Source: Hyalangium ruber | GTDB lineage: Bacteria > Myxococcota > Myxococcia > Myxococcales > Myxococcaceae | Length of the DNA: 64,000 nt | Reading direction: 5' to 3' | NCBI RefSeq assembly: GCF_034259325.1 | Contig: NZ_JAXIVS010000009.1 | Coordinates: 310,001-374,000, forward strand | In this document: piece after piece, positions 616 to 21,797 of the stretch | How positions within the stretch are numbered: position 1 is the first letter of the stretch | Layout: every line of letters starts with the position of its first letter | The notes under the pieces: model-generated | Database searches by the model: none | What the model was told of the DNA's origin: nothing | Seen by the model: only the letters and a program-made list of their open reading frames with translations | Position numbers and translations under genes: made by a program

Positions 616-997
616 CGAACGAGATAGCCCGGCAGTTACACGTCGCGCAACACCGATGAGGAGAGCCAGTTCCTCCTACACCATGTAGGCAAGCGCTGAG
701 TGACCGCGGACGGACGGACTCACCCTAGGGCCTGGGCAGTCCGTCCGCCCTGATCCCGCAGTCGGATCTCGAAGAGTCAACCTGCCCTTGTGGACGGTCG
801 CCCAGCGGGCAGGCGCGCAAGGGCAGTGACATGACGCTGCGATCCGTTGCCGTGCAGTGAAGGGGCTTTCACATTTGGTTCACACGGCGCGGTCGTGATG
901 GCTGGTGCGCTCCGATCTGGAGCGGCGGTCTCCCGCCTATGCGAGCTGCATGGGCGGGGGCGCTTACTGCGCTCGTGCCAATTTCCGGGAGAACCCA
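616..997. other. Intergenic region ahead of the ubiquitin-like operon
   Basis: This 382-bp gap separates the leftward secreted-protein gene from the rightward Ubl operon, so it should hold divergent promoters. It contains a short hairpin (CCTAC/GTAGG, 675-688) and the larger inverted repeat listed separately at 711-747. I see no convincing -35/-10 pair and no open frame with coding character. Confidence 0.5.
711..747. repeat. Inverted repeat upstream of the Ubl operon
   Basis: Two perfect 10-bp arms, CGGACGGACT (711-720) and AGTCCGTCCG (738-747), are separated by 17 nt. No T-run follows on either strand, so it does not look like an intrinsic terminator. It lies about 250 bp before the Ubl start and could be an operator for a dimeric regulator or a transcript hairpin. 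Confidence 0.45.
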
Positions 998-1261
998 ATG
1001 TCCAAGGAAGGCAAGTTCATCGAGCTCATCTTCGTCGTGAACGGTGAGGACACGCCGGTCAAGTTCAACATCAAGGAGCCCCTCCACGCAGCGCGCAACA
1101 AAGCCTTGGCCGAGAGTGGGAACACGGGGCGTCCTCCTCACGAGTGGGAGGTCCGCACTGAGGCAGGCGTGCTGCTCGAGGCGAGCGCGAAGCTGGAAAG
1201 CCTGGGGCTCCAGTCAGGTACGCGGCTGTTTCTCTCGTTGGGAGTGGGTGGAGGAGGGTGA
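998..1261 (+). CDS. Ubiquitin-like modifier, DUF2604-like
   Basis: 87 aa. The ATG at 998 follows a GGGAGA ribosome site. The sequence reads as a beta-grasp fold: a beta strand (FIELIFVVNGED), a second strand (VKFNIKEPL), a helix (HAARNKALAE), and a late strand (GTRLFLSLG). The protein ends GVGGGG immediately before the stop. A bare C-terminal Gly-Gly is the form used for adenylation by an E1, so no processing protease is needed for maturation. The next two genes are E2-like and E1-like and a JAMM peptidase lies opposite. That context, together with resemblance to the DUF2604 Ubl family of bacterial conjugation operons (family memory), supports a protein modifier rather than a sulfur carrier. 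Confidence 0.8.
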   Translation: MSKEGKFIELIFVVNGEDTPVKFNIKEPLHAARNKALAESGNTGRPPHEWEVRTEAGVLLEASAKLESLGLQSGTRLFLSLGVGGGG

Positions 1262-1262
1262 C

Positions 1263-1910
1263 ATGCGAGTGGAGCCAGCGGTTAGCCGCGCGAAGTTCGA
1301 CGCGGAGATCCGACACCTCGACGAGCAGGTGGCTCCGCTGCGGAGGTGGGGCTGTTGGGTGCAGCGCGCGCGCTACCCGGAAGTGGACGTCGTCTTCGTG
1401 CCGCGCACGCCCTTACGGATCTCGTTCTCCGTTCCGGTGTCTGGAGGGCTGATCGGCCAGGCGAAGCACGCGGTCGCACACGCACGGGAGGCTGAGCTCT
1501 CGGTCTTGGCGGCCCGGGCCTTTGGCGTTCGAGTGCTGATGGACGACTACGATCAGCGTGCTCCTTCTGTCACCTTCCGCGATCCGTGGACGTGGGAGTT
1601 GCTCTCGTTCGACGAGATGCTCCGGGCAATCCTGGTGGATGAGAAGGGCAACACGCGCCCTGTCCTGGTGGAAGCCCATCCGGTGACGAAGCAGCCCTTT
1701 CTGTGTCTGAGAGGGACGCGCGAGTACCACGAGCACCCTCAGCATTCAGGAGACGACTGGGTGCTGTTGCGCGGCGGCTTCGGGCTCTTCTCCTTGCTTT
1801 CAACCGTTTGGAGGACGTGCGTGGAGAACGCACGTCCCCACCTGCTGCTGAATCCACCGGCCCAGGTGCAGGTTCAATGGGAGCCGGTGGCTTCCAGGCG
1901 GATGAGGTAG
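1263..1910 (+). CDS. E2-like conjugating protein of the CEHH type
   Basis: 215 aa. The start lies one base after the Ubl stop, and its ribosome site GGAGGAGG lies inside the codons for the Ubl glycine tail, so the two are translationally linked. The C-terminal third holds a motif with C148, E154, H156, H158 and H161 (PFLCLRGTREYHEHP), matching the Cys-Glu-His-His pattern of the family I recall as Metal_CEHH in DUF2604 operons. C148 is the obvious candidate to receive the Ubl thioester. The N-terminal 140 residues alternate strands and helices compatible with a divergent E2 fold. The role as E2 is inferred from operon order (Ubl, E2, E1) and the motif; it has no detectable similarity to eukaryotic E2 enzymes by eye. 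Confidence 0.65.
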   Translation: MRVEPAVSRAKFDAEIRHLDEQVAPLRRWGCWVQRARYPEVDVVFVPRTPLRISFSVPVSGGLIGQAKHAVAHAREAELSVLAARAFGVRVLMDDYDQRAPSVTFRDPWTWELLSFDEMLRAILVDEKGNTRPVLVEAHPVTKQPFLCLRGTREYHEHPQHSGDDWVLLRGGFGLFSLLSTVWRTCVENARPHLLLNPPAQVQVQWEPVASRRMR

Positions 1911-1916
1911 GAACTC

Positions 1917-3452
1917 ATGGCACTGGCGCGTTTCTTCGAGCGCGTTTTTAGGGCTGCTGGCCGGGCGCTCGTCGTCTCGCGCGAGACGCTGGAGACAGCC
2001 CTGGGCAGCCAGGTAGTGGCCGTCCAGTGTGGCGCGGCATGTGCTGCGGAGGGGAACGCTCGATGGATCGCCGAGCTCCTCGTCAATCTCCTCGTCAGGC
2101 TCTACCCCCGCCTGGCCATCGCGTCGGAGCTGCCGGACGTCCGCGAGCATCTGATCGGCATCGCCAAGTCCATCAACCCGGCGGTAGATGTCGAGGACGC
2201 GACCGGCGCCACCGTCACGGTGGTGGTGGGCAGCGAGGAGTCCTCCCACCCGAACACGATCTATGCCCGCGCGGATGGGTGGGTGGCGCGCGTTCTGTTC
2301 CAGCCTTCGAGGAGCCCGCTGGGGCCGGCCAACCCGTATGCGGCAGCGGCTGCGGCCGCGCTCGCAGCTGCGGAAGTCTTCCGTCGCGTCTTTCGCGACC
2401 GCCTGCCGACGCAGCAGGAGCCCCGGGAAGTCAGCCTCTCTCTGCTGGATTTCAGCGAGGAGGCGGGGGCCGAAGAGCCATTGGGGCCAGCAGACGTCGG
2501 GCAGGTGGTGATGGCTGGCCTCGGAGCTGTGGGCAACGGCGCGCTGTGGGCGATGGGGCGCCATGCGTCGCTCACCGGTGAGGTGTGGCTCGTGGACCAC
2601 GAGACCGTCGAGCTCTCCAATCTCCAGCGGTACGTGCTGGCTGCAGACTCGGACGAGCGTGCCGCGAAGGTGGACCTAGCGGACGCCGCGCTCCGCCACA
2701 CAGGTCTGCGGCGATACCTATGCAGGGAGACGCTGGAGAGCTTCGCCGAGCGCTTCCGCGAGGGCTTCACCTTACCTACGGTGTGCGTGTCCGTGGACAA
2801 CGTGCCCAGCCGACGTGCGGTGCAGGCGCTGCTGCCGCGGCTGGTGCTCAATGGGTGGACAGGCGACATGAGCCTGGGAGCCTCCTGGCACGAGTTCGAC
2901 CGGGAGGCTGCGTGCCTGTCCTGCCTCTATCATCCCAACGGCCCCAGGCCGAGCCAGACGGACATGGTGGCCGAGGCTCTCGGACTTGACCCGGAGCGAG
3001 CAGGAAAGCTGTGGATCAATGCGGAGGCTCCAGAGCCAGAGGAACTGGTGCAGATGGAAAAGCACCTGGGCCTCAAGCCTGGGGACCTCAGTGGGTGGCG
3101 TGGAAAGCCGCTGGGTGACATCTACACCGGAGTCATCTGTGGCTCGGTACGGCTGGATGTGCAGGGACTTGGACGCGTCGAAGTTGTTCCGCTCGCGCAT
3201 CAGTCCGTGCTCGCAGGCGCCCTCATGGCGGCTGAACTGGTGAAGCGGTCAACGCCCTCACTGGGGGCCCGAAGTCAGCATCAGGTGCTGACGGTGTGGG
3301 AGGACGTGCTGCGTCGGCCACCCCCAGCGGGCCGGTGGTTGCGCGACCGGTCGCGTGAGCCTGGCTGCATCTGCGGCGACAAGGTGTACCAGGAGGTCTA
3401 CCAGAGGAAGTGGCGCACGGTGGCAACTCCAGGGGACATGGCGCCCCGGTGA
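1917..3452 (+). CDS. E1-like Ubl-activating enzyme (ThiF family)
   Basis: 511 aa, six bases after the E2-like gene. Residues 1-190 form an extra N-terminal domain. The ThiF/E1 adenylation domain starts near 195 with GLGAVGNG (201-208), then D227 (LVDHETVE), the NLQR signature (N235, R238), K251 and D294 (SVDN). Two cysteine pairs (C333/C336 and C484/C486) can bind the structural zinc seen in this family; one of the cysteines could instead be the catalytic residue. The expected reaction is ATP-dependent adenylation of the Gly-Gly end of the Ubl, then transfer to the E2-like protein. The stop lies only 12 bp from the stop of the convergent JAMM gene. Confidence 0.85.
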   Translation: MALARFFERVFRAAGRALVVSRETLETALGSQVVAVQCGAACAAEGNARWIAELLVNLLVRLYPRLAIASELPDVREHLIGIAKSINPAVDVEDATGATVTVVVGSEESSHPNTIYARADGWVARVLFQPSRSPLGPANPYAAAAAAALAAAEVFRRVFRDRLPTQQEPREVSLSLLDFSEEAGAEEPLGPADVGQVVMAGLGAVGNGALWAMGRHASLTGEVWLVDHETVELSNLQRYVLAADSDERAAKVDLADAALRHTGLRRYLCRETLESFAERFREGFTLPTVCVSVDNVPSRRAVQALLPRLVLNGWTGDMSLGASWHEFDREAACLSCLYHPNGPRPSQTDMVAEALGLDPERAGKLWINAEAPEPEELVQMEKHLGLKPGDLSGWRGKPLGDIYTGVICGSVRLDVQGLGRVEVVPLAHQSVLAGALMAAELVKRSTPSLGARSQHQVLTVWEDVLRRPPPAGRWLRDRSREPGCICGDKVYQEVYQRKWRTVATPGDMAPR

Positions 3453-3464
3453 GGGGCAGCTCCT

Positions 3465-3965
3465 TCAGCCCACCAACTGGAAGATCTGGCGCGTCACAGC
3501 TGGGGAGACCTCCTGCCAGCGCGCGTTGCGCAGTCGGTAGACCGCCCAGCCGGTCGGAGTGTGCTCGGTTCGCGCGAAGTAGGGGACGACGAGTGAGAAC
3601 CCGCCCTCGATAGCGACGATGGCGTACTTGTCGTCCATTGCTGAGTGGTACGCCTCAGTAGGGTGGCTGTGGATTTGGGCAATGAGTCGCAGGCGCTTAT
3701 CGCTCAGGAACCGGTTGAGGTTGAACAGCGTCTCCGAGCTGAGGAAGTAGCCGATGCCATCTTCGGAGCGGATGGACTCCTGGGGGGGAACGAGGCAACT
3801 CTGGATGGTGGCCACCGTGCCCTCGATCTGGCCCACCCAGAGCACCAGCCCCTCATTCCCTTCGCGTCCGAAGTCCTGGAGGACACGAACGGTCTCTGCC
3901 AACGCCCTGTGAGGAAGATGGACGACTTCCACACCGTCAAGGGGGGATCTTTTGGCGGTCTGCAT
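3465..3965 (-). CDS. JAB/JAMM metalloprotease, predicted Ubl deconjugase
   Basis: 166 aa from the ATG at 3965; a longer reading from 4073 adds a low-complexity tail that I doubt. It has the complete JAMM zinc signature: E38, H99-x-H101-P (QIHSHP), S108 and D111. Such enzymes cleave isopeptide or C-terminal bonds of ubiquitin-like proteins. It is on the strand opposite the Ubl-E2-E1 genes and converges with them tail to tail, so unlike the usual co-directional layout it must be transcribed from its own promoter to the right. With the other three genes it completes a four-component conjugation/deconjugation set of the type recently tied to antiphage defence (BIL/Bub operons, from memory). Confidence 0.85.
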   Translation of the reverse strand: MQTAKRSPLDGVEVVHLPHRALAETVRVLQDFGREGNEGLVLWVGQIEGTVATIQSCLVPPQESIRSEDGIGYFLSSETLFNLNRFLSDKRLRLIAQIHSHPTEAYHSAMDDKYAIVAIEGGFSLVVPYFARTEHTPTGWAVYRLRNARWQEVSPAVTRQIFQLVG

Positions 3966-4135
3966 TCCTGGATCGTACCACGCTGAGTGCTGTACCCAGC
4001 CTGGTCGGCTGGGGAGCGTGGGTCTCAACGCATCCAACGAGGAGGGAATGGGCAAGAAGGTCCTAGAGGCCATGAAGCTCGGAAAGCCGCTGACGCTAAG
4101 GGCTACTGCTCATGATGCAGATGGCACGTCAGGGA

Positions 4136-4415: not shown

Positions 4416-4703
4416 TGCAGACGGCAACAGACGCGGAGCTGTTCGCGGGGGGGGAGAGCCGCGTCACAACGGCTTGGACCGGAACGGTGTGCTTGAGGGT
4501 TGGAGATGCGCAGCCGTCCTGCTGATCGCGGGCAGTCCGCGCGCGAGCCACAAGCAGATCGGTCCAGAGCTGATGCTGTTTTCTCAGGAAGGCGTTACCG
4601 TTCCACTTCGGCAGGTGGACCGAGCTGCGAGCCATGCCGTGGAGTGTCGGTAGGTCGTCGCCAGCCACAACCAGGCAAGGCAAGGAGAGACGTGGGGAAG
4701 CAC

Positions 4704-6569
4704 ATGGTGGCTGAGAACTCCTTCGAGAAACCACGATGGTTGCGCGATCTGCTGCGTTTTCTGCCGCTCAAGAGCCAGTTCGTGCTCTCGGGCAATGTGC
4801 GTGACCTACAGCTCTTCGAAGCTGGGCCCGGCGTGGTGACCCCACGGCCCATGCTCCAGGTGCTGGCAGCGGAGCTGCGCGTCGCGGGATACGCACACGT
4901 GGTCTCCTATGACCCGGTTGCGGGATTCAGGGTGATAGGGCTCCCCGGCGAAGCCCCCTCACTGGGGGCGGACCTGTTGAAGCAACTCGGCCTGGAGGCG
5001 GCGAACGGGACGGCTCCCGCTGGCCTTGAGCTCTTCGCGGAGACCCTTCAGCGGGCCGTTGGTCGCTCGGGAGACCCAATTGCGGTAGTGGCCGACTTTG
5101 CCTCACGCATGGTTGTGCGCACCGCGGCTCTTTCTGGACCGGAGCATCAGGCGTTCACGCGGGCACTGGTACTATCCCACCAGGCACGGTCACGTCCGCA
5201 TGGCACGCCTCCGCGCCCCTTTTTCAACACGGTGCTCTGGGTCGTCGACAAAGAGGGAGACCTGCCTGACTGGCTGCTTGTCGACAACCCGCGGATTCGA
5301 CACGTGCCCATCGCCAAGCCCGATCATCGAGCCCGGCGGCCTCTTGCCGCTTCCCTGCTGCGAAGTCTTGAGGGTTATCGCGAGGCGGATCCTCACGCGG
5401 CGGGAAGGGCGCTGGATGACTTTGTCGACCAGACCGAAGGTCTGCTGCTGGTGGACCTCACCTCCATCGTTGAGCTTGGCCGGACGGAAGGGCTGGGCTT
5501 CGCCGAGATTGCGGACGCTGTCAGGCGCTACAAGGTTGGCGTCACCGAGGATCCCTGGCGGAAAATTGACCGCGCGAAAGTGCGGGGAGCAACGGACTTT
5601 GTTCGCAGCCGTGTGAAGGGGCAGGACCACGCGGTTGTCCACATGCTCGATATCGTCAAGCGGGCCGTCACGGGCGTCGGTTCTCCCCGCCGGGGGAGCC
5701 GACCGCGTGGCGTTGCCTTCCTCGCGGGGCCCACAGGGGTTGGTAAAACCGAGCTCGCGAAAACCATCACCAGCCTGCTCTTCGGAGACGAGGGTGCGTA
5801 CATTCGTTTCGACATGTCCGAGTTCAGCGCGGAGCACTCCGACCAACGCCTCATTGGTGCGCCGCCGGGCTATGTCGGGTACGACGTCGGGGGGGAACTC
5901 ACCAATGCCATCCGGGAGCGGCCGTTCAGCGTGGTGCTCTTCGATGAAATCGAGAAGGCGCACCCACGCATCCTCGACAAGTTCCTCCAAGTCCTCGATG
6001 ACGGCGTCCTGACCTCAGGTCGCGGAGACCGAGTCTACTTCTCGGAAGCCTTCATCGTCTTCACCTCGAACCTCGGCATTTACCGGCTCGAAGCTGATGG
6101 AAGTCGGGTGCCCAATGTCACACCTGAGGATGGCTTCTCAGAGGTTCAGGCTCGGGTTCGCTCAGAGATCGAACGTCACTTCAAGGTCGTGCTCAATCGG
6201 CCCGAGATCCTCAACCGCATCGGTGACAACGTGCTCGTCTTCGACTTCGTGCGTCCCGCGGTGGCGGATCAGATTTTCGCGGGGATGGTGGAGGCGGCGC
6301 TCTCAGATGTCGAGTCCGCGCAGGGCATTGCCGTCACACTCGACGCCACCTCACGCGACCGACTGCGCGCTCTCTGTCTTGCCGACCTGTCAAACGGGGG
6401 CCGTGGCATCCGCAACAAGGTTGAGACGCACCTGCTCAACCCGCTCGCCCGCGCCCTCTTCGATGCGGATGCTACGCCGGGTCGATGTTTCGAAATACGA
6501 GGCGTGGAGACCGGCAGTACAACCACGCTCCACCTTGCTGATGTCGGTATCCCTGGAGCGGTGGCATGA
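4704..6569 (+). CDS. ClpB-D2-like AAA+ ATPase with degenerate N-terminal half
   Basis: 621 aa from ATG 4704; a GTG at 4692 is an alternative start. Residues 1-320 look like a worn AAA-type domain without a P-loop. The C-terminal half is a Clp/Hsp100 second AAA module: Walker A GPTGVGKT (342-349), Walker B with D414-E415 (LFDEIEKAH), and the GYVGYDVGG segment that in ClpB forms the substrate-gripping pore loop. There is no Clp N-domain, no coiled-coil M-domain and no ClpP-binding loop that I can see. It is therefore likely an unfoldase or remodelling ATPase acting on partners encoded next door. It overlaps the radical-SAM gene by ATGA, giving tight translational coupling. Confidence 0.85.
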   Translation: MVAENSFEKPRWLRDLLRFLPLKSQFVLSGNVRDLQLFEAGPGVVTPRPMLQVLAAELRVAGYAHVVSYDPVAGFRVIGLPGEAPSLGADLLKQLGLEAANGTAPAGLELFAETLQRAVGRSGDPIAVVADFASRMVVRTAALSGPEHQAFTRALVLSHQARSRPHGTPPRPFFNTVLWVVDKEGDLPDWLLVDNPRIRHVPIAKPDHRARRPLAASLLRSLEGYREADPHAAGRALDDFVDQTEGLLLVDLTSIVELGRTEGLGFAEIADAVRRYKVGVTEDPWRKIDRAKVRGATDFVRSRVKGQDHAVVHMLDIVKRAVTGVGSPRRGSRPRGVAFLAGPTGVGKTELAKTITSLLFGDEGAYIRFDMSEFSAEHSDQRLIGAPPGYVGYDVGGELTNAIRERPFSVVLFDEIEKAHPRILDKFLQVLDDGVLTSGRGDRVYFSEAFIVFTSNLGIYRLEADGSRVPNVTPEDGFSEVQARVRSEIERHFKVVLNRPEILNRIGDNVLVFDFVRPAVADQIFAGMVEAALSDVESAQGIAVTLDATSRDRLRALCLADLSNGGRGIRNKVETHLLNPLARALFDADATPGRCFEIRGVETGSTTTLHLADVGIPGAVA

Positions 6570-7222
6570 AGCTCGCCCTCTCTCGGTTGCACTATCCTGT
6601 TCACGCACTTGGGCCTGGTGCTCGTATTGGCATCTGGCTGCAGGGCTGCTCGATTCAATGCCCGGGATGTATTTCCGCCGACACCTGGGCGAAGGAGCGG
6701 GGGTGGACGACTGTGGAGATAGTGATGGCAACGGTCGCGCCCTGGCTTGCCCAAGCCGATGGCGTCACCATCAGTGGTGGGGAGCCCTTTGATCAGCCAG
6801 AGGCGCTGCGTACTCTCCTCGTGCGCCTCCGGGCTTCCACCCCCGGCGATATCCTCGTGTATTCGGGTTACCCTTGGGAGGCGCTTGCCGGGCATCTCGA
6901 TGCATGCGCGGGACTCATAGACGCCCTCATCTCCGACCCCTTTGAAGCTCGCGCACCGCAGACCCTGGCGCTGCGCGGCAGCGACAACCAGCGGCTGCAC
7001 TGCCTCACGCCGCTGGGCGAGGCGAGGTTCCGCGCCTACGAGCGTCCACTCGAGGCCGCCGACCGGCAGCTCGACGTTCTATTCGACGAGGACGGCACGG
7101 TCTGGATGGCTGGCATCCCGCACCGAGGTGACATGCAGCGGCTTTCCACACTCCTCTCGGTTGGCGGGCACACGGCTTCGACAACGGAAGCCAGGCCCCT
7201 CAGCAAGAGGCAGCATTCATGA
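6566..7222 (+). CDS. Radical-SAM protein of the NrdG/activase type
   Basis: 218 aa. C28-x3-C32-x2-C35 (GCSIQCPGC) binds the 4Fe-4S cluster, and ISGGEPFDQP is the SAM-binding GGEP motif. The length and opening (WLQGCSIQCPGC) fit the single-cluster activases such as NrdG and PflA. No anaerobic ribonucleotide reductase or other glycyl-radical enzyme is encoded nearby, so the usual job of installing a glycyl radical has no visible target. It could act on a partner within the operon, or make a small modified product. It overlaps both neighbours by 4 nt (ATGA at 6566 and at 7219), showing it is an integral member of this unit. Confidence 0.85.
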   Translation: MKLALSRLHYPVHALGPGARIGIWLQGCSIQCPGCISADTWAKERGWTTVEIVMATVAPWLAQADGVTISGGEPFDQPEALRTLLVRLRASTPGDILVYSGYPWEALAGHLDACAGLIDALISDPFEARAPQTLALRGSDNQRLHCLTPLGEARFRAYERPLEAADRQLDVLFDEDGTVWMAGIPHRGDMQRLSTLLSVGGHTASTTEARPLSKRQHS

Positions 7223-10200
7223 CGCAGCTTCCTGAGCAACTCATCCGCGTGTGCCCACAGTGTGGGACCGAGCGTCCAGCCATGGAAACGCATTGTGAGA
7301 ACCTCCTGGCTCATGGGCGTTGCCAATGGCCACTCTCCGAGGAGGAACTGCGCGTCCAAGGACAGGTGGTCACACGCGCGCCGGAGACTCCCGTCGGGAC
7401 GAGGCCATGGCTCCAGTGCACCAACGGGCATGCTATCGATGCCGGCGACCAGCTATGCCTTCAATGTGGCGCAAGCATCGCGGACACGGCATCCCCCACG
7501 ATCCCGCCTACACCGCCCGCGCCGAAGCTTGTGGGTGGGTGGCAACTGCTTGAGAGAGCCCCCTCCGCTGATGGCCCATGGGAACGGTTCCTTGTAGAGG
7601 ATGCTTCAAGAGGTCATCGCGCGCTGCTTACCCTCTACGCAGCAGGGGCGGAGCCAGACCCGGCGGTGCGTGAGGTGCTGCGGAGAATGCCGCGGGACCA
7701 CATTCCTGAACTCCTGGCCATCGGTCGGCACGAGGGACACGCCTACGAAGTGTTCGAGCACATCGACGGGGGAACGCTTGCTGACGCGGGGTTCTTCGCG
7801 GCGGGCAATCCAGCGGACCTGCGGCGGATGGTCGACGAACTCGGTCGGGCGCTAGCAGGCTTTGCCGAGGTGGGGCTGCGCCACCGCGACGTTCGTCCCA
7901 CGACGATTCTTCTGCGCACACGCGAGCCGCTCGATCTCGTAGTGACGGACTTCGGTTCCGCTCGGCTGTCGGACTTCGACCTGGAATCGGTCGCGCCCTT
8001 GGGGCTGACCCGTTACTCAGCCCCCGAAGTCATTGTGGGCGCCGTGAGTGCCGCCAGCGACTGGTGGAGTCTAGGGATGATTCTGCTCGAGCATGCGACC
8101 GGTGGCGCGTGTTTCACGGGCGTCGATGACCGGGCATTCCAAATTCATGTTGTGACTCGGGGCGTTGACGTCCCTGCGGAACTGGATCCGTCCCTCCGGG
8201 TTCTTTTGCGCGGGCTTCTTGCACGCGACCCGCTGAAGCGCTGGTCCTGGCCCCAGGTGCAGGCGTGGCTTGCGGGCGAACCGGTCGAGGCGTCCGAGGA
8301 CGGGGTTGCCTCACCTGCGGAGACAACGGGGCCAACTTTCACGCTTAAGAGGCGGGCCTTCAGCCGGCCAGAGCTCTTTGCTCTGGCGGCCGCAGAGGCG
8401 CAGAACTGGGAGGAGGCCCGGAGCCTCACCCTGCGCGGCGCCGTTAGCACATGGCTGGAAGAGCGAGGGGTTGACCCGAAAGTGCGGGCGCAGGTCCGCC
8501 GGCTTGCCTCTGATGAGTCCCTCCCAGAGGACTTCCGCCACGCACTTGTCCTCATGGCGATGAATCCCGCCCTGCCCCTTACGTGGGCTGGGGACATCGT
8601 TACCCCCGCATGGCTCCTTGCTCATCCGGAGGAAGGGTACGCCATCGTCACCGGAGGGGTCACACGCCACCTGGAGCAGATGGGGCGTGAGCCATGGCTC
8701 GTCCGGATGCGAACGCGCGCGGAGGCAGTGCGCGAGCGCGCCGGGCTACTTCAGATCGAACTAGATGAGGAGCGCCTACGCGTTGCTCTTCTGGCCTCCT
8801 CCAGGGCGAACTTGGAGGCTGAGCGCACAGCCCTCCGGCGCATCTACCCCGATACCGACCACGCCGGGCTGTCGTCCATCGTCGAGCGGACGCGGCTCAC
8901 TGACGAGGATCTTATCCTCCTGGTCAGCGCGACCTTCCACCAGTTCACCCCCCTCGCTCAGCTCCTCGACCGGGCTGCGGAACTCGCGCTGCGCACCGGA
9001 GTCACACTCGACCGAGCGCAGGCAGAGACGTGGTTCGTGCGCTCCCGGCGCGAGGTATTCGCGGAGGCTGATGCGAGGGTCGCTAATTTCGCGCGCTGCG
9101 GCATCGTGCGGGTGGACGAGTGGGCTGACGCTTTCCGGGTCGAGCGGCGCATGCTCCTTGAGCGTGCTGTTGTCCTGCTCGCCGTGCCGCGAGAGAGGTG
9201 GAAGGAGCCGCCAAAGCAGCAGTACGTCGCGAACCTGCTCGAACTCTTCGAGAAGCGCGTTGCCGGCTCGGTCCAACGAGGACCACTCGTCCGGTTCCTT
9301 ATCGGCAAGACCACCCCGCGCGTCGACCTGACTGAGCTTGGGACGGCGCATCGTCCAGCTGAAGCGCTTCTCGATCACGTGCTTGGGCGCACCGAGGCGC
9401 CCGTAGCTCTTGACCCAGCAGTTCTTACTGACGGCCCTGTTGAGAGCCGCATGCGGAAGTTGGTCAACCACGCGCTGACGTTCCGCCGCGATACAGGCAT
9501 TGATGGGCGCTACCTCGGTTTCCCCTTCCTCGTCTTGCGCCACGGTCGTCAGAGTTCAGCGAGCGCGGCGCCCCGCATCGCCCCCGTTCTGCTGTGGCCC
9601 GTCGCGCTTGAGCTCCAGAGCGGCAGTCGCCTCGGGACCCTTGTCTTCGACCGCGAGCGAGAGGAGGTCCGCCTAAACCCAGCACTTGAGGGGCTCCTTG
9701 AGGCTGCGGAGTTCGCGAAGTGGAAGGCAGCGCGGGATGAGCTCCTTGCGCGCCCTTCCATTCGCCTGGGTGATGTGATGGACCTCTTCGGTACGCTCGC
9801 AACCCCACGTGCCAGAAGGCTCGCCCGGCTACCTAGCAAGGACGTCAAGCTGCCTGCTGGAACACGGGAACTCGCCTGTGCCGCCGCGATCTTCAACGCC
9901 GAGTTCACCGGCCAATCGCTTAGCGAAGACCTTCGTCAGATGCGTCGTATGCCTCCTGCAGGAACGGGATTGGAGGCGGCCCTGCGTGTCTCGGCGGAGC
10001 CGCCGTCTGGCGCGCCGCTCGGCATGGTGCCGGAGCGCGACCGGTTCCTCACAGTCGAGAGCGACCCGTCGCAGGAGGCGGCCGTGCTCCGGTCCCGCAT
10101 GGCTCCGGGCCTCCTTGTCGAGGGGCCTCCTGGTACGGGCAAGAGCCAGACCATCGTCAACATCGTGGCGGATGCTATTGGCCGGGGCGAGTCGGTCCTT

Positions 10201-13200
10201 GTCGTTTGCCAGAAGCAGGCGGCACTACGGGTTGTCGAGAAGCGACTTGCCGCGGAGAGGCTCGGGGACCGCCTCTTCGTGGTCGTCGATGTCAACCGGG
10301 ACAGGGAGTCCATCGTTCGTGCCCTACGCGAGCAGGTGGAGGCAGTCCGGAATGCCGATCCTTCGCGGGCTGCGACTCTGCGGCAGAAGCGCGCAGGGTT
10401 GGCTGGGCGTATTGAAGCCCTGGAGGCGGAGATTGATCGGCACCACCAAGCTTTACACACGGTAGATGGTGTAACTGGCCTGAGCTACCGGGCTCTCCTG
10501 GGAGAACTTGTCGGCCTAGAGACGGGCGGCGTCCCAGTCGATGTTCCTGGGCTGAGACTGCGCCTTGCCGATCTCGATCACGAAAGAGTCTCCCGGCTCG
10601 AGGAGGTATGCGGCCCCCTCGCATCGCCTTGGCTCGAATCCCGCTTTGAGGGCAGTCCCCTCAGCGTCCTCAGCAATTTTCCCGTCGACAAGGGAGTGAA
10701 TGAGGCGTTTCTTCGGGGATTTACGCTCTTCGTTAAGGCAGAGACAGAGCGTCGCGATCTCCTAGCGCGGCCGAGCACATTCGACGTTGACGATCCTGCG
10801 CCCCTCCGCGCCTGGCTTGATGAGCATGGGCGGCTGTTCGAGGTGATGTCCCCCGAGACGCGAGCCCAGCTTGCGGCCTGGCTCGATCTCTTTATAGCGG
10901 GACGCGACGGCGCAGTCTTGGGGACGCAGATCCTCGAGACGCTGGAGAGGGCCGGGGAAACCCTGAGCCGGCTCGACGAGCGCGCCCATGACAGTGCGCT
11001 GTTCAGCATCTTGGCAGCTCTCCCGCCTGGGGAACTCAGGGCGTGGCTCGATACCGCAACACGCGCGACGGCCGAAGTATCTTTCTGGGGTCGGCTCAAT
11101 CCAGGGCGCTGGCAGCAGCGTCGGCGCTTGCGCACCTTCCTCGCTGGTCATGGGGAGGAGCCGACAGAAACTCGAATGGTCGCGCTGCGGCAGGCGCTCG
11201 GCCTCGAAGTGCAACTGCGGACGGTCCGCCGTGAAGTTGCCGAGGTCAGGGAGGCACTGCAGCTCGATGTCCATGAAGCTCCTGCGTCACTTCGGATGCT
11301 CCGCCGCGAGGTCGACGATCTCTTGGCCAGGCTGCGCCCGGTGAAGGACGCTGTCGCTGCGGTTCGGGTGTGCCCTCGCCCAGTAGAGGCCGAGGACATG
11401 GCTCGCTCGGGGACGCCTGAGGGCTACCGCCGCCTCCGAGGGGCCTTCGACAGTGCCTTCGAGCGGCATGCTGCCCGCACGCGGAGCCGCACCGTTCTCG
11501 CGCCGCTTGCCAAGTGGTTCCAGGAGAGTTGGATCGCAGGCTGCGCGCGGAGCATCACACAGGGGAGGGCCACGACCGAGATGCTCTTGAAAATCGTCAA
11601 GGCACTGGGAACGCTGGAGCCGTTTCAACGTTTCCGTGTCCGGGCGAAGGGGCTTGACCCAGAGGCGCTGGCGGTGTTCGCGGCTCTGCGCGACCGTGAG
11701 GATGCGCTGAGGGCGCTGCCCTCGGCCATGCTGGAGGAGCACGTGCGCCGGGTCATCCGGCGAGAGGCGCTTCTTGGCTGGAAGGCACGAATGGAGCAAA
11801 CAAGGCCCGAACTGCTGCTCGAACGGCAGGAACTCGAGCGCAGGGTGCAGAGCCTCGCTGACAGCGACCGGGCGATGCGCGAGCTCAACCGGCAGTTGCT
11901 TGCAGTCGATCTTGATCGCACGCGCCTGAGCACTCCGGTGGCCTGGGATAGCATCACTCGGCTGCGCGGTCCGCGGATGAAGCGACTGCGTGAGATTCTC
12001 GAGCAGGGGGCAGATCTTGGGCTCATGCATCTGCGCCCCATCTGGCTCATGAACCCGGATGTGGCCAGCCGATTGCTACCGCTGAAGGCCCGGCTCTTCG
12101 ATCTCGTCATCTATGACGAGGCTTCACAGATGCCCGTGGAATACGCCGTGCCGACGTTGTTTCGCGCAGGCCGGGTCGTCATAAGTGGCGACGAGAAACA
12201 GATGCCGCCGACGAGCTTCTTCGCCAGCCGCATCGACGGCGATGAGGATGAGGAGTTCGACGGGGAGGAACTCGACGAGGCGGCTACCGAAGCTGAGAGG
12301 TCCGCTTACGAGGAGACTTGGAACCGGCGCGAGGTGAGGGACTGCCCGGACCTGCTGCAACTTGGCCGAGGCGTCCTGCCGACCACCACGCTCCAGATTC
12401 ACTACAGGTCGAGGTACCGGGAACTCATCGGTTATTCGAACGCCGCCTTCTATGGCAACCGCCTCAGCGTGCCTGCTCGTCACCCGGAGGCGGAAGTCCG
12501 ACGCGTGCGCCCCATCGAAGTGCTGCGGGTCGAAGGCGTCTACGCGGACCAGACGAATGCGGCGGAGGCCCAGCGCGTCGTCGATCTACTCGCCGAGGTG
12601 TGGTCGGCAGCGCCCGAGAGTCGCCCTAGCATTGGCGTCGTCACCTTCAACCGCAAGCAGGCGGACCTTGTTGAAGAGGTTCTTGAACAACGCGCAGAGA
12701 AAGACCCCGGATTCCAGCGCGCCTACCAGCTGGAGCGTGATCGCGTCCAGGATGGCGAGGACATGGGTTTCTTCGTCAAGAACGTGGAGAACGTGCAGGG
12801 TGATGAACGCGATGTCATCGTGTTCAGCACTACGTTCGGGCGCGACAGGAACAAGGCGTTCCGGCGCTCTTTCGGTGTGCTCGGCCAAGCGGGTGGGGAG
12901 CGGCGCCTCAACGTTGCGGTGACGCGTGCCCGTCAGAAGGTAATCCTCGTCACCTCCATTCCGGTCAGCGAAGTCTCTGACATGCTGGCGAGCGGACGCG
13001 CGCCGGACAAGCCGCGCGACTACCTACAGGCTTATCTCGATTATGCCCATAGGATCAGCGCGGGCGAACTCAAGCTGGCGCGTGGCGCAACGGCACGGCT
13101 CTCAGCCAACGCGGGCGCACGACGGGATAGGGAAGTCGACCCCGATGGGTTCACTGCCGCGGTGGCTGGCTACATCCGGGAACTTGGCTATGAAGCAGTC

Positions 13201-13473
13201 CCGAAAGACGATGGGGATGCCTTCGGGCTCGACTTCGCTATCGTAGACCCCCGAACGCGGCTCTTCGGGGTTGCCATCGAATGTGATGCGCCGCGCCACG
13301 AGCTGCTGAGTCGGGCCCGGGCGCGAGAAATCTGGCGACCGGGGGTTCTCTCCCGGTCCATCCCTAAGGTGCATCGGGTGTCTTCCCGCGCGTGGTACCA
13401 CCAAGCGGGGGAGGAGCGGCGGCGGCTTCGGGAGGCCATCCACGCGGCACTACGTGGGGAGGGACATTCATGA
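7219..13473 (+). CDS. Zinc-ribbon, kinase-like, SF1-helicase and nuclease fusion
   Basis: 2084 aa. Domains in order: two zinc ribbons (CPQC, CLQC; about 10-90); a protein-kinase-like domain (about 110-355) with HRD at 222-224, DFG at 244-246 and an APE-like motif, but without a recognisable VAIK lysine and with T in place of the catalytic-loop Asn (HRDVRPTTIL); a helical linker; a DUF4011-like segment (about 740-900); an SF1 helicase with Walker A GPPGTGKS (969-976), motif II DEAS (D1633), motif III GDEKQMPPTSF and the C-terminal VAVTRARQ motif; and a restriction-endonuclease-like domain (FGLDFAIVDP, VAIECD with E2021) of the MTES_1575/Vsr type. It resembles the kinase-helicase of Mokosh defence (from memory), with extra zinc ribbons and a nuclease. 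It likely senses and degrades foreign nucleic acid. Confidence 0.85.
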   Translation: MTQLPEQLIRVCPQCGTERPAMETHCENLLAHGRCQWPLSEEELRVQGQVVTRAPETPVGTRPWLQCTNGHAIDAGDQLCLQCGASIADTASPTIPPTPPAPKLVGGWQLLERAPSADGPWERFLVEDASRGHRALLTLYAAGAEPDPAVREVLRRMPRDHIPELLAIGRHEGHAYEVFEHIDGGTLADAGFFAAGNPADLRRMVDELGRALAGFAEVGLRHRDVRPTTILLRTREPLDLVVTDFGSARLSDFDLESVAPLGLTRYSAPEVIVGAVSAASDWWSLGMILLEHATGGACFTGVDDRAFQIHVVTRGVDVPAELDPSLRVLLRGLLARDPLKRWSWPQVQAWLAGEPVEASEDGVASPAETTGPTFTLKRRAFSRPELFALAAAEAQNWEEARSLTLRGAVSTWLEERGVDPKVRAQVRRLASDESLPEDFRHALVLMAMNPALPLTWAGDIVTPAWLLAHPEEGYAIVTGGVTRHLEQMGREPWLVRMRTRAEAVRERAGLLQIELDEERLRVALLASSRANLEAERTALRRIYPDTDHAGLSSIVERTRLTDEDLILLVSATFHQFTPLAQLLDRAAELALRTGVTLDRAQAETWFVRSRREVFAEADARVANFARCGIVRVDEWADAFRVERRMLLERAVVLLAVPRERWKEPPKQQYVANLLELFEKRVAGSVQRGPLVRFLIGKTTPRVDLTELGTAHRPAEALLDHVLGRTEAPVALDPAVLTDGPVESRMRKLVNHALTFRRDTGIDGRYLGFPFLVLRHGRQSSASAAPRIAPVLLWPVALELQSGSRLGTLVFDREREEVRLNPALEGLLEAAEFAKWKAARDELLARPSIRLGDVMDLFGTLATPRARRLARLPSKDVKLPAGTRELACAAAIFNAEFTGQSLSEDLRQMRRMPPAGTGLEAALRVSAEPPSGAPLGMVPERDRFLTVESDPSQEAAVLRSRMAPGLLVEGPPGTGKSQTIVNIVADAIGRGESVLVVCQKQAALRVVEKRLAAERLGDRLFVVVDVNRDRESIVRALREQVEAVRNADPSRAATLRQKRAGLAGRIEALEAEIDRHHQALHTVDGVTGLSYRALLGELVGLETGGVPVDVPGLRLRLADLDHERVSRLEEVCGPLASPWLESRFEGSPLSVLSNFPVDKGVNEAFLRGFTLFVKAETERRDLLARPSTFDVDDPAPLRAWLDEHGRLFEVMSPETRAQLAAWLDLFIAGRDGAVLGTQILETLERAGETLSRLDERAHDSALFSILAALPPGELRAWLDTATRATAEVSFWGRLNPGRWQQRRRLRTFLAGHGEEPTETRMVALRQALGLEVQLRTVRREVAEVREALQLDVHEAPASLRMLRREVDDLLARLRPVKDAVAAVRVCPRPVEAEDMARSGTPEGYRRLRGAFDSAFERHAARTRSRTVLAPLAKWFQESWIAGCARSITQGRATTEMLLKIVKALGTLEPFQRFRVRAKGLDPEALAVFAALRDREDALRALPSAMLEEHVRRVIRREALLGWKARMEQTRPELLLERQELERRVQSLADSDRAMRELNRQLLAVDLDRTRLSTPVAWDSITRLRGPRMKRLREILEQGADLGLMHLRPIWLMNPDVASRLLPLKARLFDLVIYDEASQMPVEYAVPTLFRAGRVVISGDEKQMPPTSFFASRIDGDEDEEFDGEELDEAATEAERSAYEETWNRREVRDCPDLLQLGRGVLPTTTLQIHYRSRYRELIGYSNAAFYGNRLSVPARHPEAEVRRVRPIEVLRVEGVYADQTNAAEAQRVVDLLAEVWSAAPESRPSIGVVTFNRKQADLVEEVLEQRAEKDPGFQRAYQLERDRVQDGEDMGFFVKNVENVQGDERDVIVFSTTFGRDRNKAFRRSFGVLGQAGGERRLNVAVTRARQKVILVTSIPVSEVSDMLASGRAPDKPRDYLQAYLDYAHRISAGELKLARGATARLSANAGARRDREVDPDGFTAAVAGYIRELGYEAVPKDDGDAFGLDFAIVDPRTRLFGVAIECDAPRHELLSRARAREIWRPGVLSRSIPKVHRVSSRAWYHQAGEERRRLREAIHAALRGEGHS

Positions 13474-14849
13474 GCGGGCCAAAGGTTGTCCGGGTCGTCA
13501 CGCGCGAGGAACTGGAGGCTGTGGCGAGACAACAGCTGCAGCTCCTAGTGGATGCGCTCGAGGAGTTGAGGCGCTGCGCGAGACGCCATGGAGCACTCGA
13601 CGAGGCGTTCGAAGCGGGGCTTGAGCAGCGACGAGTGCGCATGGTGCGGCTGTTCGATGAGGCCAAGTGGGCTGCGCTCCAAGGACAGGTGCCCCTCGAA
13701 ATCGCGTTCTTGGTGTCAGAGCGCGACCGCATCCGGGCACAGGCCGTGGCGTCCGTTGAGGCTGAGCGCTCGAAGCGCCAGCGCACGGAGGGGGCTGCCC
13801 GCACTCTCTTGGCGGCGTTCGAGGCCGCCGGGCGAGAGCCGCCAAAGCGCCTTAGGGAGATAGCAGACGGAGTTCAGAGTGCCGACGAGGCGGCACTTGG
13901 GGAGATGCAGGGTGTCCTGACTGATGCATTTCGGCAACTTGCCCCAGCCCCGCGCGCCGGGACTTCGGCAGTTCAGCGGGAGCTTGCTGCGCGTCTCGGT
14001 GCAGGGGAGACCGGTCAGCGATTTGCCGAGTGGCTGGAGGCCCGACCTCGCGCGGCGCCCAGCGATCCCAGCGTCCGACTTAATGCGCTGCTTGCCGAGG
14101 TCGAGGCCCTAGAGGAGCCTGAGGTGGCGCGTCCCTTCCTTGAGCGGGCCGCCGCCATTTCGCGGGAGGTGCAAGAGGGCCGTCGAGCACTCTTGACCGA
14201 CGCCCTCATGCTTGACGTCGGCGCATACCGACGTGCACGGCAGGCACGCGAGGTCGCAGTCGCGAGCCTACGAGAAGTGCGGTGTAGCCTGGCAGCCCTC
14301 GGTACCCCTACGACGCTCGCGCTTGAGGCGCGTATATCCGTAGCGCTGGAAGGAGGTCAGATCAAGGACACCGAGGGACTTCTCCAGGAGGCACGCGTGA
14401 CACTGGAGGTCGAGCGGCGGGAGATGGCCGCAGCAGCCCGGCGCCGGGCGGTCCTCGGAGGACTGGCCGCGCTGGGCTATGAGGTACGCGAGGCGATGGT
14501 GGTGGCTTGGCCGAAGGAGGGGCGGATAATCGTGCGCAAGCCCGGGGCGACCGACTATGGGGTCGAACTTGGAGCACCTGCCGACGCGGCGCGAGTGCAG
14601 ATGCGCCTCGTGGGCTCCGACCGTCCAATGACACCCCGAGGCGCTGGACGGGACCGCGATATGGAGACGATGTGGTGCGCCGAGTTTCAGCAGCTCCGCA
14701 AGTTGGTTGCTGTAAACGGCACAGAAGTTGCCGTCGAGCGGGCGCTTGAGGCTGGCGCTCAGCCGGTGAAGACCGTCTCTCTAGAGTCGTCGCTGCAGTC
14801 AGAGGACGTTGCCCCCACAGGGGCGTCGGTGCGTAGGCCCGCACGGTGA
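13470..14849 (+). CDS. Coiled-coil protein of the AAA/radical-SAM/helicase operon
   Basis: 459 aa, overlapping the helicase stop by ATGA with a strong GGGGAGGG ribosome site. Most of the chain is Arg/Glu/Ala-rich helix with heptad-like spacing, interrupted near 150-175 by a Pro-rich linker. The end (about 345-400) turns into strands (YEVREAMVVAW, GRIIVRKPG, DYGVEL), suggesting a small globular cap. The N-terminus (MSGPKVVRVVTREELE) looks conserved, but I do not recognise a named family. No catalytic motif is visible. As last gene of the operon it may be a structural or adaptor subunit, perhaps the substrate gripped by the AAA+ ATPase. Confidence 0.75.
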   Translation: MSGPKVVRVVTREELEAVARQQLQLLVDALEELRRCARRHGALDEAFEAGLEQRRVRMVRLFDEAKWAALQGQVPLEIAFLVSERDRIRAQAVASVEAERSKRQRTEGAARTLLAAFEAAGREPPKRLREIADGVQSADEAALGEMQGVLTDAFRQLAPAPRAGTSAVQRELAARLGAGETGQRFAEWLEARPRAAPSDPSVRLNALLAEVEALEEPEVARPFLERAAAISREVQEGRRALLTDALMLDVGAYRRARQAREVAVASLREVRCSLAALGTPTTLALEARISVALEGGQIKDTEGLLQEARVTLEVERREMAAAARRRAVLGGLAALGYEVREAMVVAWPKEGRIIVRKPGATDYGVELGAPADAARVQMRLVGSDRPMTPRGAGRDRDMETMWCAEFQQLRKLVAVNGTEVAVERALEAGAQPVKTVSLESSLQSEDVAPTGASVRRPAR

Positions 14850-15967: not shown

Positions 15968-17881
15968 CTAGCGCCGTGGGAGATCGATTTGCCGTGCTCC
16001 GCGCAGCCCTGCGAAGGCGCGCCCTGCGGCAATGAGCTGCATCCCCTTGAACTCGTCGCGCTCAAGGAGATCCACGAAGGGCCGTAGCAGGTAGTTCTCC
16101 TGTGCCGAGATGCCGATCTCGCTCAGGTTGGCGGGGAAGTCGATGAGCAGGAGCCCCGGGTAGGCGAAGGGCTCTGTCCTGCACAACTTGAGGAGCGCGT
16201 ACTGGTACGCCAGGAAGAAGTAGGCCCGCAGGTGGGCGCCGAGCATGCGTTGCCAAGGCTGACGATCCACGAGCAGGCGCAGGCGCTCCTCAGTCACCGT
16301 GACTGACACCTGGCGAGGCCCCCAGCGTGCGCGGTCCGGGCCATTCAGCGCGTTGAGGTAGTCCGTCATCGCCGCGGCCAGGCGGTCGCCCAGCTCGGTA
16401 AACTCGGGTTCAGCCTTCTTCTCTTGAACCGCGGACTTGAGCCTGGCGATGTCCTGCCGGAGCGCGTCCACGCGCCGTGCGAGTTCCTCGCGCCTATCAA
16501 GCGTCGTACCGATGCGCTGGAGTTGGCGGATGCGCTCCTGGAGGCGCCCTGTTTCTTGGTCTGCCACAGCTAGCTCCGGCGGCAAGATCCACGCGGCCGC
16601 GGTGCGCACCGGTCGCAGGAGCCCTTCGAGGCGCGTGATTTCCTCCGCCACATCCTGGCCTAGCAGGCGTGCCTCGGCATCCTCGGCTTTGAGCCGCTCG
16701 AGGAGTCCTTCCAACTCCGATGCCTCCTCCTTCAACTGCTGTCGCTCGAAGTCGAGCCGGGCGGTTGTGGACTTGCCAGGCTCGGTGGGTTGAGTGAGAG
16801 GCTGGTGGCAGAGGTAACACTCGTGAGGAGGAGCAGCTTGCTGCGAGACCGCTCGGTCGCACACAGGGCAGTGAGTGACGCGGAGCGGGCCCAAGATATC
16901 TCCTGCTGACCGCGCTCGATCCAGCTTCGCCAACTCGCTGCGTGCGCTGTTGAGCCGAAGGGTGAGGGACGCGATTCGCTCTGTTCCGCGCTCGACCTGC
17001 TCCTTCAACCGTGTGCGGCGCGCTCGCGCGGCTTCAAGTGCCGTCCCGTACTTGGCGAAAGTCTCTGCCTGGGATGAACTCGCTTCCGCGGCGCCAGCTT
17101 CCGCGTCACGGCGTAGACTCTCCAGGGCCGCGGTTCGTTGTGCTTGTCCGGCTGCCACCTGTTCCTCTAGCTGTCGGATGGCAGCCGCCAGCGAGTCGCG
17201 GGTGAAGCCGGCGCTGGCCTCCTCCACGGTGACCATCTCGCGGGCGATTTCTTGAACGGTCTGCTCGAAGGTGGCCTTCTGAGCCTCGAGCCTTGTTTGT
17301 TGCTTCTGGGCCTCGACGAGCCGTGCGTAGTCCGAGGAGAACACAGCAGGGGCAGCGCCCAAGAACAGTACGACGGCTGCGTGCTGTTCTGCCTCTATCT
17401 GCTTGACGATGAACTCATGCCACGAGTCTTCTCGCCGGTAGAGGTGTCGAAGCAGCATGCGCCAGCTCAGGTCTGGCCACGTGTTCTCCGAGTACGGATC
17501 CCCCTTGGGGATCCGTACTAACGGGAGGCCCAGGTGCTGCAGGAAAAAGGCCGAGAACTCGGAAGCGGGCACCGACTCATCGTTGATGAGGAGCTTGGTG
17601 CGGCCACCTTTTTCCGTCCAGCGGCGCTCAAGGATGAGCGGTTCTCCGTCGATGAGCAGCTCGACGCGAGCTCGGTCATAGTGAGCGACGACCTCCTCCC
17701 CGAGAGCGTCTTCCACCGTGCCTGTATCCCCCAAGAGGTAGTCGAGCGTTTGCAGCCATTTGGTCTTGCCGGCATTGGGCTCGCCGACGATGACGTTCAC
17801 GCCGGAGGCGAACTCCAGCTCCTCGCAGACATCACCGCTGAAGCGCTGAAGTCGCTGCACGTTGAGAATCTTCGCCGTCAT
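15968..17881 (-). CDS. SMC/Rad50-like ABC ATPase of an ABC-3C system
   Basis: 637 aa. Walker A GEPNAGKT (K39) lies near the start. Long coiled-coil arms fill the middle (about 190-340 and 370-520), with two CxxC pairs between them (CPVC and CYLC, about 339-358) like a Rad50 zinc hook. Walker B LLLIDFP is near 580; the usual Glu after the Asp is replaced by Phe, so ATP hydrolysis may be slow or altered. The start ATG overlaps the stop of the middle-component gene (ATGA at 17878). In ABC three-component systems this ATPase is thought to sense foreign nucleic acid and release the effector, here the DUF4297 nuclease upstream. Confidence 0.8.
   Translation of the reverse strand: MTAKILNVQRLQRFSGDVCEELEFASGVNVIVGEPNAGKTKWLQTLDYLLGDTGTVEDALGEEVVAHYDRARVELLIDGEPLILERRWTEKGGRTKLLINDESVPASEFSAFFLQHLGLPLVRIPKGDPYSENTWPDLSWRMLLRHLYRREDSWHEFIVKQIEAEQHAAVVLFLGAAPAVFSSDYARLVEAQKQQTRLEAQKATFEQTVQEIAREMVTVEEASAGFTRDSLAAAIRQLEEQVAAGQAQRTAALESLRRDAEAGAAEASSSQAETFAKYGTALEAARARRTRLKEQVERGTERIASLTLRLNSARSELAKLDRARSAGDILGPLRVTHCPVCDRAVSQQAAPPHECYLCHQPLTQPTEPGKSTTARLDFERQQLKEEASELEGLLERLKAEDAEARLLGQDVAEEITRLEGLLRPVRTAAAWILPPELAVADQETGRLQERIRQLQRIGTTLDRREELARRVDALRQDIARLKSAVQEKKAEPEFTELGDRLAAAMTDYLNALNGPDRARWGPRQVSVTVTEERLRLLVDRQPWQRMLGAHLRAYFFLAYQYALLKLCRTEPFAYPGLLLIDFPANLSEIGISAQENYLLRPFVDLLERDEFKGMQLIAAGRAFAGLRGARQIDLPRR
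17491..17519. repeat. Perfect 13-bp inverted repeat inside the ABC-3C ATPase gene
   Basis: Arms AGTACGGATCCCC (17491-17503) and GGGGATCCGTACT (17507-17519) flank a 3-nt loop. The element lies wholly within the coding sequence and translates as VRIPKGDPY with neighbours. Perfect arms this long inside a gene are unusual. Confidence 0.7.
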
Positions 17882-18447
17882 TCCTCGATGACCTCTCCCA
17901 GCTTGCGAGCGGCCACTTCCTGGTCGAACAGCCGGTAGATGAGTTCCTTGAGTGCTGTCCCACTCTCGCCACCAAGCACTGTGCGCACGCGCTTCATCTG
18001 CTCCATGAGCTCCTGGAACGGTCCCTGGGCTCCCAATTGCTCTGCTGCTCCAGCCCCCTTTTCGGTGAGCTGAAAACGAAAGGGCTTGGTTCCGTCCCGG
18101 GTGACACGTACCAGCCCTTTGCCTTCCAGATAGGCAAGCACGTGGTAGTAGCGGTGGTCCCACGGTCCGTAGTGGTGGCGTACCATGTTCGATTCGACTG
18201 CGGGCAGGACCGTCGGTACTGGGGCCCCGCGTTCGGCGCAGGCCCGAGCGAAGAAAGCAGGGTAGCGCACGAAGAAGTCCAGCTTGGCCAGCTTCGTCAG
18301 GCCATCGATGCCTCCCTTGGCCTTGCCCTTGGTACCACCGCACACCTTGAGCAGGAGGAGCAGGCGCGCCGCATGGAACTCGACGAGCTCGTCGGGCACC
18401 AGAGGGAGCCCGGCCGGGTAGTCGCGCAGGTTGCGGATGGATCTCAT
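17878..18447 (-). CDS. ABC-3C middle component with winged-helix end
   Basis: 189 aa from ATG 18447, which shares one base with the stop of the nuclease gene (TGATG). The first 75 residues (HAARLLLLLKVCGG, GGIDGLTKLAKLDFFVRYP) form a helical domain with the 'KLDFF' core typical of middle components. Residues about 90-140 (YYHVLAYLEGKGLVRVTRDG, FQLTEKGAGAAEQL) read as a winged helix. In ABC-3C systems this subunit bridges the ATPase and the effector. Gene order, spacing and sequence all fit. Confidence 0.75.
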   Translation of the reverse strand: MRSIRNLRDYPAGLPLVPDELVEFHAARLLLLLKVCGGTKGKAKGGIDGLTKLAKLDFFVRYPAFFARACAERGAPVPTVLPAVESNMVRHHYGPWDHRYYHVLAYLEGKGLVRVTRDGTKPFRFQLTEKGAGAAEQLGAQGPFQELMEQMKRVRTVLGGESGTALKELIYRLFDQEVAARKLGEVIEE

Positions 18448-20688: not shown

Positions 20689-20698
20689 CGTACTCCTC

Positions 20699-21595: not shown

Positions 21596-21797
21596 CCAGT
21601 CCCCCTCCTGGGCAGTATGCCGGCGACCTATACCAGGAACCGCCGCCGAAGTAGGGGGGCATGCTCCAGGTGCTCCAGTCCAGCTGGGCTTTGGTGGGTG
21701 CAGCCCACCGCGAAGACGATGGGGCCTGGTGAGAAGGAGGCTGTTCATCGAGTAGACTGCGGCAGAGCCCATGTGGGCTGTCGTCCGGGGGGAACTC

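Follow-up and report, generated by a model that had tools for sequence, protein, structure and literature searches.

Introduction

Helicase–nuclease proteins are found in several described systems. ProA (NCBIfam NF058533; PADLOC candidate PDC-S37) is modelled as one protein, a superfamily 1 (SF1) helicase with a C-terminal MTES_1575-type nuclease, and Hhe (NF042953) as a DUF4011 protein with a helicase and a C-terminal nuclease region, its model including no partners. Mokosh (MkoA/MkoC) has a kinase domain in its type I, and a PLD-family nuclease in its original description. A ClpB-like AAA core is represented in DolB of Dodola, whose partner, DolA, is a DUF6414 protein, and in PDC-M37B. In some FtsH ternary conflict systems, an AAA+ protein is accompanied by a radical SAM (rSAM) gene (PMC7159879). 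Here, we describe a four-gene operon at positions 4704–14849 of a 64,000-nucleotide stretch of Hyalangium ruber DNA (NZ_JAXIVS010000009.1, positions 310,001–374,000), hereafter the window, encoding an AAA+ protein, an rSAM enzyme, a giant pseudokinase–helicase–nuclease protein (KHN) and a coiled-coil (CC) protein, which together form a conserved set outside the named systems above:

4704..6569, + strand: AAA+ protein, Hsp100-like, 621 residues
6566..7222, + strand: small rSAM enzyme, 218 residues
7219..13473, + strand: giant protein KHN, 2084 residues
13470..14849, + strand: CC adaptor, 459 residues

Comparison with Described Systems

The original prediction, made from the window, had called this mix unusual and recognized no named defence system with the exact set. 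The PADLOC models, NCBIfam and the literature searched bear this out, within a partial body of literature that may miss an unnamed or preprinted description: no named system with these four genes was found, and no NCBIfam or PADLOC model reached membership for any of the four proteins. KHN residues 938–2079 align with ProA (E = 2.1e-148), but score only 496.3 bits against a cut-off of 1500, and the ProA model lacks an AAA+, rSAM, pseudokinase or CC partner. Against the Hhe model, KHN scores 300.9 bits (cut-off 2000). The predicted resemblance of the giant protein to the Mokosh kinase–helicase held for the SF1 helicase core, which matches MkoA with E = 2.9e-52 and partial profile coverage. It did not extend to the kinase region, for which the listed matches include no Mokosh profile, or to the nuclease, since no PLD domain was found in the four proteins and that of KHN is of the MTES_1575 type; furthermore, the AAA+, rSAM and CC proteins are extra here.

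The AAA+ protein shares with the Hsp100 proteins ClpB, ClpA and ClpC the layout of two ring domains (D1 and D2), the D2 motifs and the pore loop, but differs in its degenerate D1 and absent N domain, and misses all of the equivalog cut-offs. DolB and PDC-M37B were matched with E = 6.8e-16 and 8.6e-28, respectively, over the AAA core region only, and no DolA match was found among the ten window proteins scanned. The FtsH-type AAA, vWA and MoxR components of the FtsH ternary systems were not found in the four proteins. The operon is thus outside Mokosh, Hhe and ProA. On its effector it could be grouped with the helicase–nuclease systems; none of the systems found, however, has as its core an Hsp100 with a dead D1 together with a small rSAM enzyme.

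Conservation of the Four-Gene Set

Relatives of the AAA+ protein were sought in genome_contigs (one genome per species, roughly 85,000 species). The query was an alignment of its N-terminal 330 residues, a part that precedes the active ATPase core. The scan returned 252 relatives, the best 80 of which were fetched as loci. The complete set, comprising AAA+, rSAM, KHN and CC in the same order (denoted type A, with the pseudokinase, helicase and nuclease fused), was present in 74 of these 80 loci, which excludes a chance grouping. Three of the incomplete loci (L067, L071 and L078) are on short contigs where the set is probably cut; in L100 the giant gene is broken, and L070 lacks the giant protein. 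L062, from a metagenome-assembled genome (MAG), has no rSAM gene between the AAA+ and giant genes, and a second AAA+/rSAM locus elsewhere in the genome. The four families, far from being rarely found together, are near-invariant companions across genomes, and on this ordered co-occurrence the predicted view of the four genes as one functional unit is upheld.

The same observation bears on the idea that KHN by itself is an effector of the Hhe or ProA kind, with the other three genes as unrelated hitch-hikers. The ProA match described above, to what is apparently a single-protein family, speaks for it, whereas the joint occurrence of all four genes in many families and three phyla, and the presence of the AAA+/rSAM pair with different effectors (see below), leave it very improbable.

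The set is spread over Pseudomonadota, Myxococcota and one Acidobacteriota MAG. In 195 Myxococcota genomes, the CC protein had five matches, one weak and four strong, the latter being the H. ruber genome itself and three relatives that contain the whole set in order at 57–87% identity. Strong type A matches were found in 2 of 369 Gammaproteobacteria, and the set is present in 1 of 25 genomes of the genus of Pseudomonas paraeruginosa PA7. The distribution across genomes is thus patchy. Plasmid searches found the same four-gene set on plasmids of Rhizobium and Caballeronia. On pRL1 of Rhizobium leguminosarum, a type A copy is apparently decayed: its giant gene is broken into two overlapping frames, and an intact start for the AAA+ gene was not found.

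Within the window, the open reading frames (ORFs) are present as predicted, all on the + strand, and a 4-nucleotide ATGA overlap occurs at each of the three junctions. The mechanical ORF of the first gene starts from a TTG at 4500; the ATG at 4704 aligns with the relatives to within a few residues. The junctions were also counted in the 74 complete loci, using an approximate start call and taking gaps of −4 or −1 as overlap. Overlap was kept at the KHN–CC junction in 60 loci, at AAA–rSAM in 25 and at rSAM–KHN in only 11. Translational coupling of the four genes is likely, but the fixed product ratio that had been proposed is unsupported, because the exact 4-nucleotide overlap is not conserved.

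The AAA+ and rSAM Proteins

Pfam identifies the AAA+ protein as a ClpB D2-like AAA (AAA_2, 6.5e-44). Residues 7–285 constitute a degenerate D1 ring domain, in which no Walker A or Walker B motif was seen. The ClpB-type D2 (residues 286–615) is intact: it has both Walker motifs, sensor 1, an arginine finger and a GYVG pore loop. The D2 residues K348, T349, D414, E415, N456, R499 and R505, as well as Y390 of the pore loop, are invariant in 85 aligned copies. The AlphaFold model (mean predicted local distance difference test score (pLDDT) of 77) superposes over its full length, D1 and D2, on ClpB and ClpC; for ClpB, residues 7–614 superpose on 181–858 with Z = 17.6 and a root-mean-square deviation of 11 over 490 residues. 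Judged by its motifs, the protein is an Hsp100 in which the first ATPase ring is dead and the second live. By eye, we recognized neither an N domain nor the IGL/IGF loop of ClpP partners, which suggests that the protein is closer to a remodeller than to a protease cap.

The rSAM protein matches Fer4_12 in Pfam (1.3e-24). Its CX3CX2C motif (C28/C32/C35) is invariant in 83 aligned copies and also found in distant relatives, and a GGE motif is invariant or nearly so. The nearest solved structure is pyruvate formate-lyase activase (E = 4.9e-17), and this enzyme and NrdG, which likewise have a small radical SAM core with CX3CX2C, are the nearest profiles. However, the protein scores below the NrdG cut-off, and its family has conserved C-terminal motifs of its own, LRGSDNQ and GIPxRxD. 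A search for a glycyl-radical enzyme partner covered only the four proteins and found none. A GYxV motif in the head of the CC protein was considered as a glycyl-radical site and rejected, as it looks like an ordinary helix–strand turn.

The Giant Protein and Its Coiled-Coil Partner

The Pfam domains of KHN are Pkinase, DUF4011, AAA_11/AAA_12 and REase_MTES_1575. From the N-terminus, its features are:

7252..7467, + strand: two putative zinc ribbons, C12/C15/C26/C35 and C67/H71/C80/C83, from sequence
7531..8268, + strand: pseudokinase domain
9430..9693, + strand: DUF4011 segment, from Pfam
10063..12954, + strand: SF1B (Upf1/IGHMBP2-like) helicase
13150..13440, + strand: REase_MTES_1575 nuclease domain, PD-(D/E)XK-type

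The domain had been predicted to be kinase-like, and a kinase fold is indeed present, but not an active kinase. The VAIK lysine is a threonine in 75 of the 80 copies with a residue at this position and a lysine in none; the DFG aspartate is kept in 3/80 copies and the HRD aspartate in 77/80. The window copy retains the DFG aspartate and has lost the VAIK lysine. Because the lysine is lost everywhere and the DFG aspartate nearly everywhere, the domain is, on its residues, a pseudokinase. Walker A and B of the helicase are invariant in 81 aligned copies, and the nuclease residues D2005, E2021-C-D2023 and H2027 are conserved in 79–81 of the 81. Contig 1 of the H. ruber genome encodes a second helicase–nuclease (L002 and L003), related to the C-terminal half of KHN but without the kinase part, with 39% identity over the nuclease end.

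No family for the CC protein was found in Pfam, PADLOC or NCBIfam profile searches, and there was no credible sequence relative in the PDB. The predicted fold is confident (pLDDT of 91) and consists of long helices and a small α/β head, which in the model is apparently built from a conserved N-terminal strand, SGPKVV, and residues ~330–437. Fold matches were weak, with KA1/AMPK-like domains at Z = 5–6.5.

Modular Relatives

The AAA+/rSAM pair is also found with other partners. In type B, present in five plasmid loci (Moellerella, Leisingera, Polaromonas, Photobacterium and Acinetobacter), the genes for an SF1 helicase, a PIN protein, a coiled-coil-like protein, an AAA+ protein and an rSAM protein lie in a row, the PIN and helicase domains having been assigned by Pfam on the Moellerella copy. 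The CC proteins of types A and B gave no significant match when their profiles were compared, and a search of the 369 Gammaproteobacteria gave no clear type B copy. In type C, known from one locus (Aristaeella, L016), a DUF4011–helicase–MTES nuclease gene overlaps a separate kinase gene, followed by genes for an uncharacterized protein, an FHA protein, rSAM, AAA+, a PPM phosphatase and a second kinase. Type D, known from two loci (L161 and L164), has AAA+, rSAM and a kinase of ~1000 residues. L161 also encodes an FHA protein, and L164 a protein bearing the coiled-coil head of type A. The type C and D kinases keep the VAIK lysine, the catalytic aspartate and asparagine (HRD/HKDxKPxN) and DFG.

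The kinase and helicase–nuclease functions appear to be linked, because they are fused in type A and encoded by separate, overlapping genes in type C. The simplest reading of these sequences is that a kinase gene fused with a helicase–nuclease gene to give type A, and that kinase catalysis was lost afterwards; the L161, L164 and L016 loci are possibly the ancestral signalling form. Since distant cousins keep the AAA+/rSAM pair and swap the effector, the pair looks like the core, with the helicase–nuclease as an exchangeable business end.

The catalytic residues of the type C and D kinases, the FHA proteins of type C and one type D locus, and the type C phosphatase are what would be expected of a signalling module with ancestral phospho-control, where kinase, FHA, phosphatase, Hsp100 and rSAM would make up a regulated chaperone switch; the helicase–nuclease would then be one of several outputs, and the kinase fold of type A would have been kept as a scaffold. 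In type A, however, the operon contains a dead kinase and no gene for an FHA protein or a phosphatase, and with types C and D seen in so few loci, we regard such a module as improbable.

More distant AAA/rSAM neighbourhoods, rows comprising an AAA ATPase, a DUF1257 or short unannotated protein, a DUF2997 protein and an rSAM protein, occur in Rhodococcus, Paenarthrobacter and Paenibacillus; rows of this kind were seen on plasmids (L015, L017 and L021). On two cyanobacterial plasmids (L018 and L025), an rSAM gene is near clusters of small GTPase-like genes, in L025 also with Hsp70 and a TPR protein.

Proposed Mechanism

We tentatively favour the reading that the four genes encode one nucleic-acid-destroying machine under tight control, whose purpose would most likely be defence against mobile DNA. 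The computations show which genes make up the set, that they are conserved together, what their domains are, which active sites are intact or dead and that the effector is swapped; complex formation, gating, the rSAM substrate and defence are inferred. KHN would be the effector, its SF1B helicase and C-terminal PD-(D/E)XK nuclease unwinding and cutting foreign or aberrant DNA, or possibly RNA, while its zinc ribbons and dead kinase may act as sensor or scaffold by binding a target or partner without phosphorylation. The Hsp100 ring would serve as a gate that threads and unfolds a protein through the active D2 pore, and this unfolding might load or release the nuclease, or strip it from nucleic acid. 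The CC protein may be the adaptor that joins ring and nuclease. The rSAM enzyme, whose gene adjoins that of the Hsp100 in types A and B, could provide a licence, in the form of a radical-chemistry modification on one partner that sets whether the complex fires.

The pattern of conservation supports this reading: helicase, nuclease, rSAM and D2 residues are near invariant while the kinase residues are lost. So do the complete ordered set in 74 of 80 loci, the superposition of the AAA+ model on ClpB and ClpC, and the fusion of kinase and helicase–nuclease in type A. The recurrence of the AAA+/rSAM pair with other nucleic-acid effectors in types B and C and the presence of several copies on plasmids point the same way, as do the location of the H. 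ruber operon in a defence island and of the PA7 copy at the border of a defence hotspot, described next.

Genomic Context and Possible Function

The window opens with a defence island of 23 kb, consistent with the prediction that the operon lies in a run of known defence systems. Besides the operon, the island contains:

905-4073: ubiquitin-like (Ubl) cassette with DUF2604 Ubl ending in GGGG, Metal_CEHH protein, Prok-E2_C/ThiF (E1) and convergent JAB; BilD/BilC-like matches
15968-19604, − strand: Lamassu-like genes LmuB, LmuC and LmuA/HamA-like, directly downstream of the operon
19792-22892: CBASS cyclase with 4TM effector; PD-Lambda-2 C-like gene

The upstream Ubl cassette was rejected as a part of the machine, having no match in the 20-kb loci of the three Myxococcota relatives or in any of the 80 fetched loci.

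The distance between the P. paraeruginosa PA7 copy and ihfA is ~20 kb; rplT and infC are nearby (these names come from inspection of the sequences), and the intervening DNA contains Vsr-like and GHKL-like genes. The PAO1 counterparts are presumably PA2725–PA2728. Indels in PA2727 have been reported in isolates (PMC4918941, PMC3697988). The position of the PA7 copy corresponds to the border of the defence hotspot cDHS1 (PMC10250203), and from this copy we infer that the cDHS1 border genes of P. aeruginosa belong to the four-gene family.

Several points weigh against a role in defence, or against the machine as drawn above. No relatives were found in viral contigs and phage records. The AAA+/rSAM pair also occurs without a helicase close to it, none having been seen in the 15.5 kb of L161 (type D); the other type D locus, L164, is only 7 kb long. 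We compared 15 kb downstream and ~10 kb upstream of 12 loci from 12 other genera, the upstream set also including Myxococcota flanks, with 15-kb control stretches on the same contigs, using PADLOC matches; in this small sample, with a simple ORF caller, the flanks had no clear excess of defence genes. The near-side flanks contained Bil, a GajB/DRT-like helicase, a methyltransferase, Wadjet and IetAS, and the controls MkoA, PD-Lambda-4, HerA/Dsr2 and RtcR. In the window, then, the island is a real argument for defence, but not a general one. The AAA tree mostly follows families, with a few jumps; for instance, Stenotrophomonas bentonitica falls inside Pseudomonas (SH-aLRT support of 96), and the Acidobacteriota MAG beside Steroidobacter (SH-aLRT 100). 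Every P. aeruginosa isolate is reported to carry the cDHS1 border genes (PMC10250203); this, together with the family-following tree, would better fit a stable role in the cell.

These last two observations favour the main rival explanation, that of a cellular quality-control or DNA-repair machine, as do the neighbours outside the window, which are mostly metabolic and transport genes. In such a machine, the helicase–nuclease would process stalled replication or R-loop intermediates during stress, the Hsp100 would extract stuck proteins, and the rSAM cluster would report redox state or oxygen. The patchy distribution in Myxococcota, Gammaproteobacteria and the genus of PA7, and the plasmid-borne and decayed copies, are at odds with it, and we consider it doubtful, though less so than the signalling module. 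The defence reading can be worded more specifically, as an immune machine in which an exchangeable rSAM and Hsp100 control core arms different nucleic-acid-destroying effectors, with one version bordering cDHS1; this we put forward with more reserve than the nucleic-acid-destroying machine itself.

Significance

In the models and literature searched, we found no helicase–nuclease linked with an rSAM enzyme and a protein unfoldase. If the immune function is true, post-translational radical chemistry and protein unfolding would join the control of nuclease effectors; if the repair function is true, a conserved yet uncharacterized locus would be explained. The AAA+/rSAM pair provides a search handle for the wider module family, and the spread of the set across phyla, with a copy at the border of a Pseudomonas hotspot, makes its function testable in laboratory strains.

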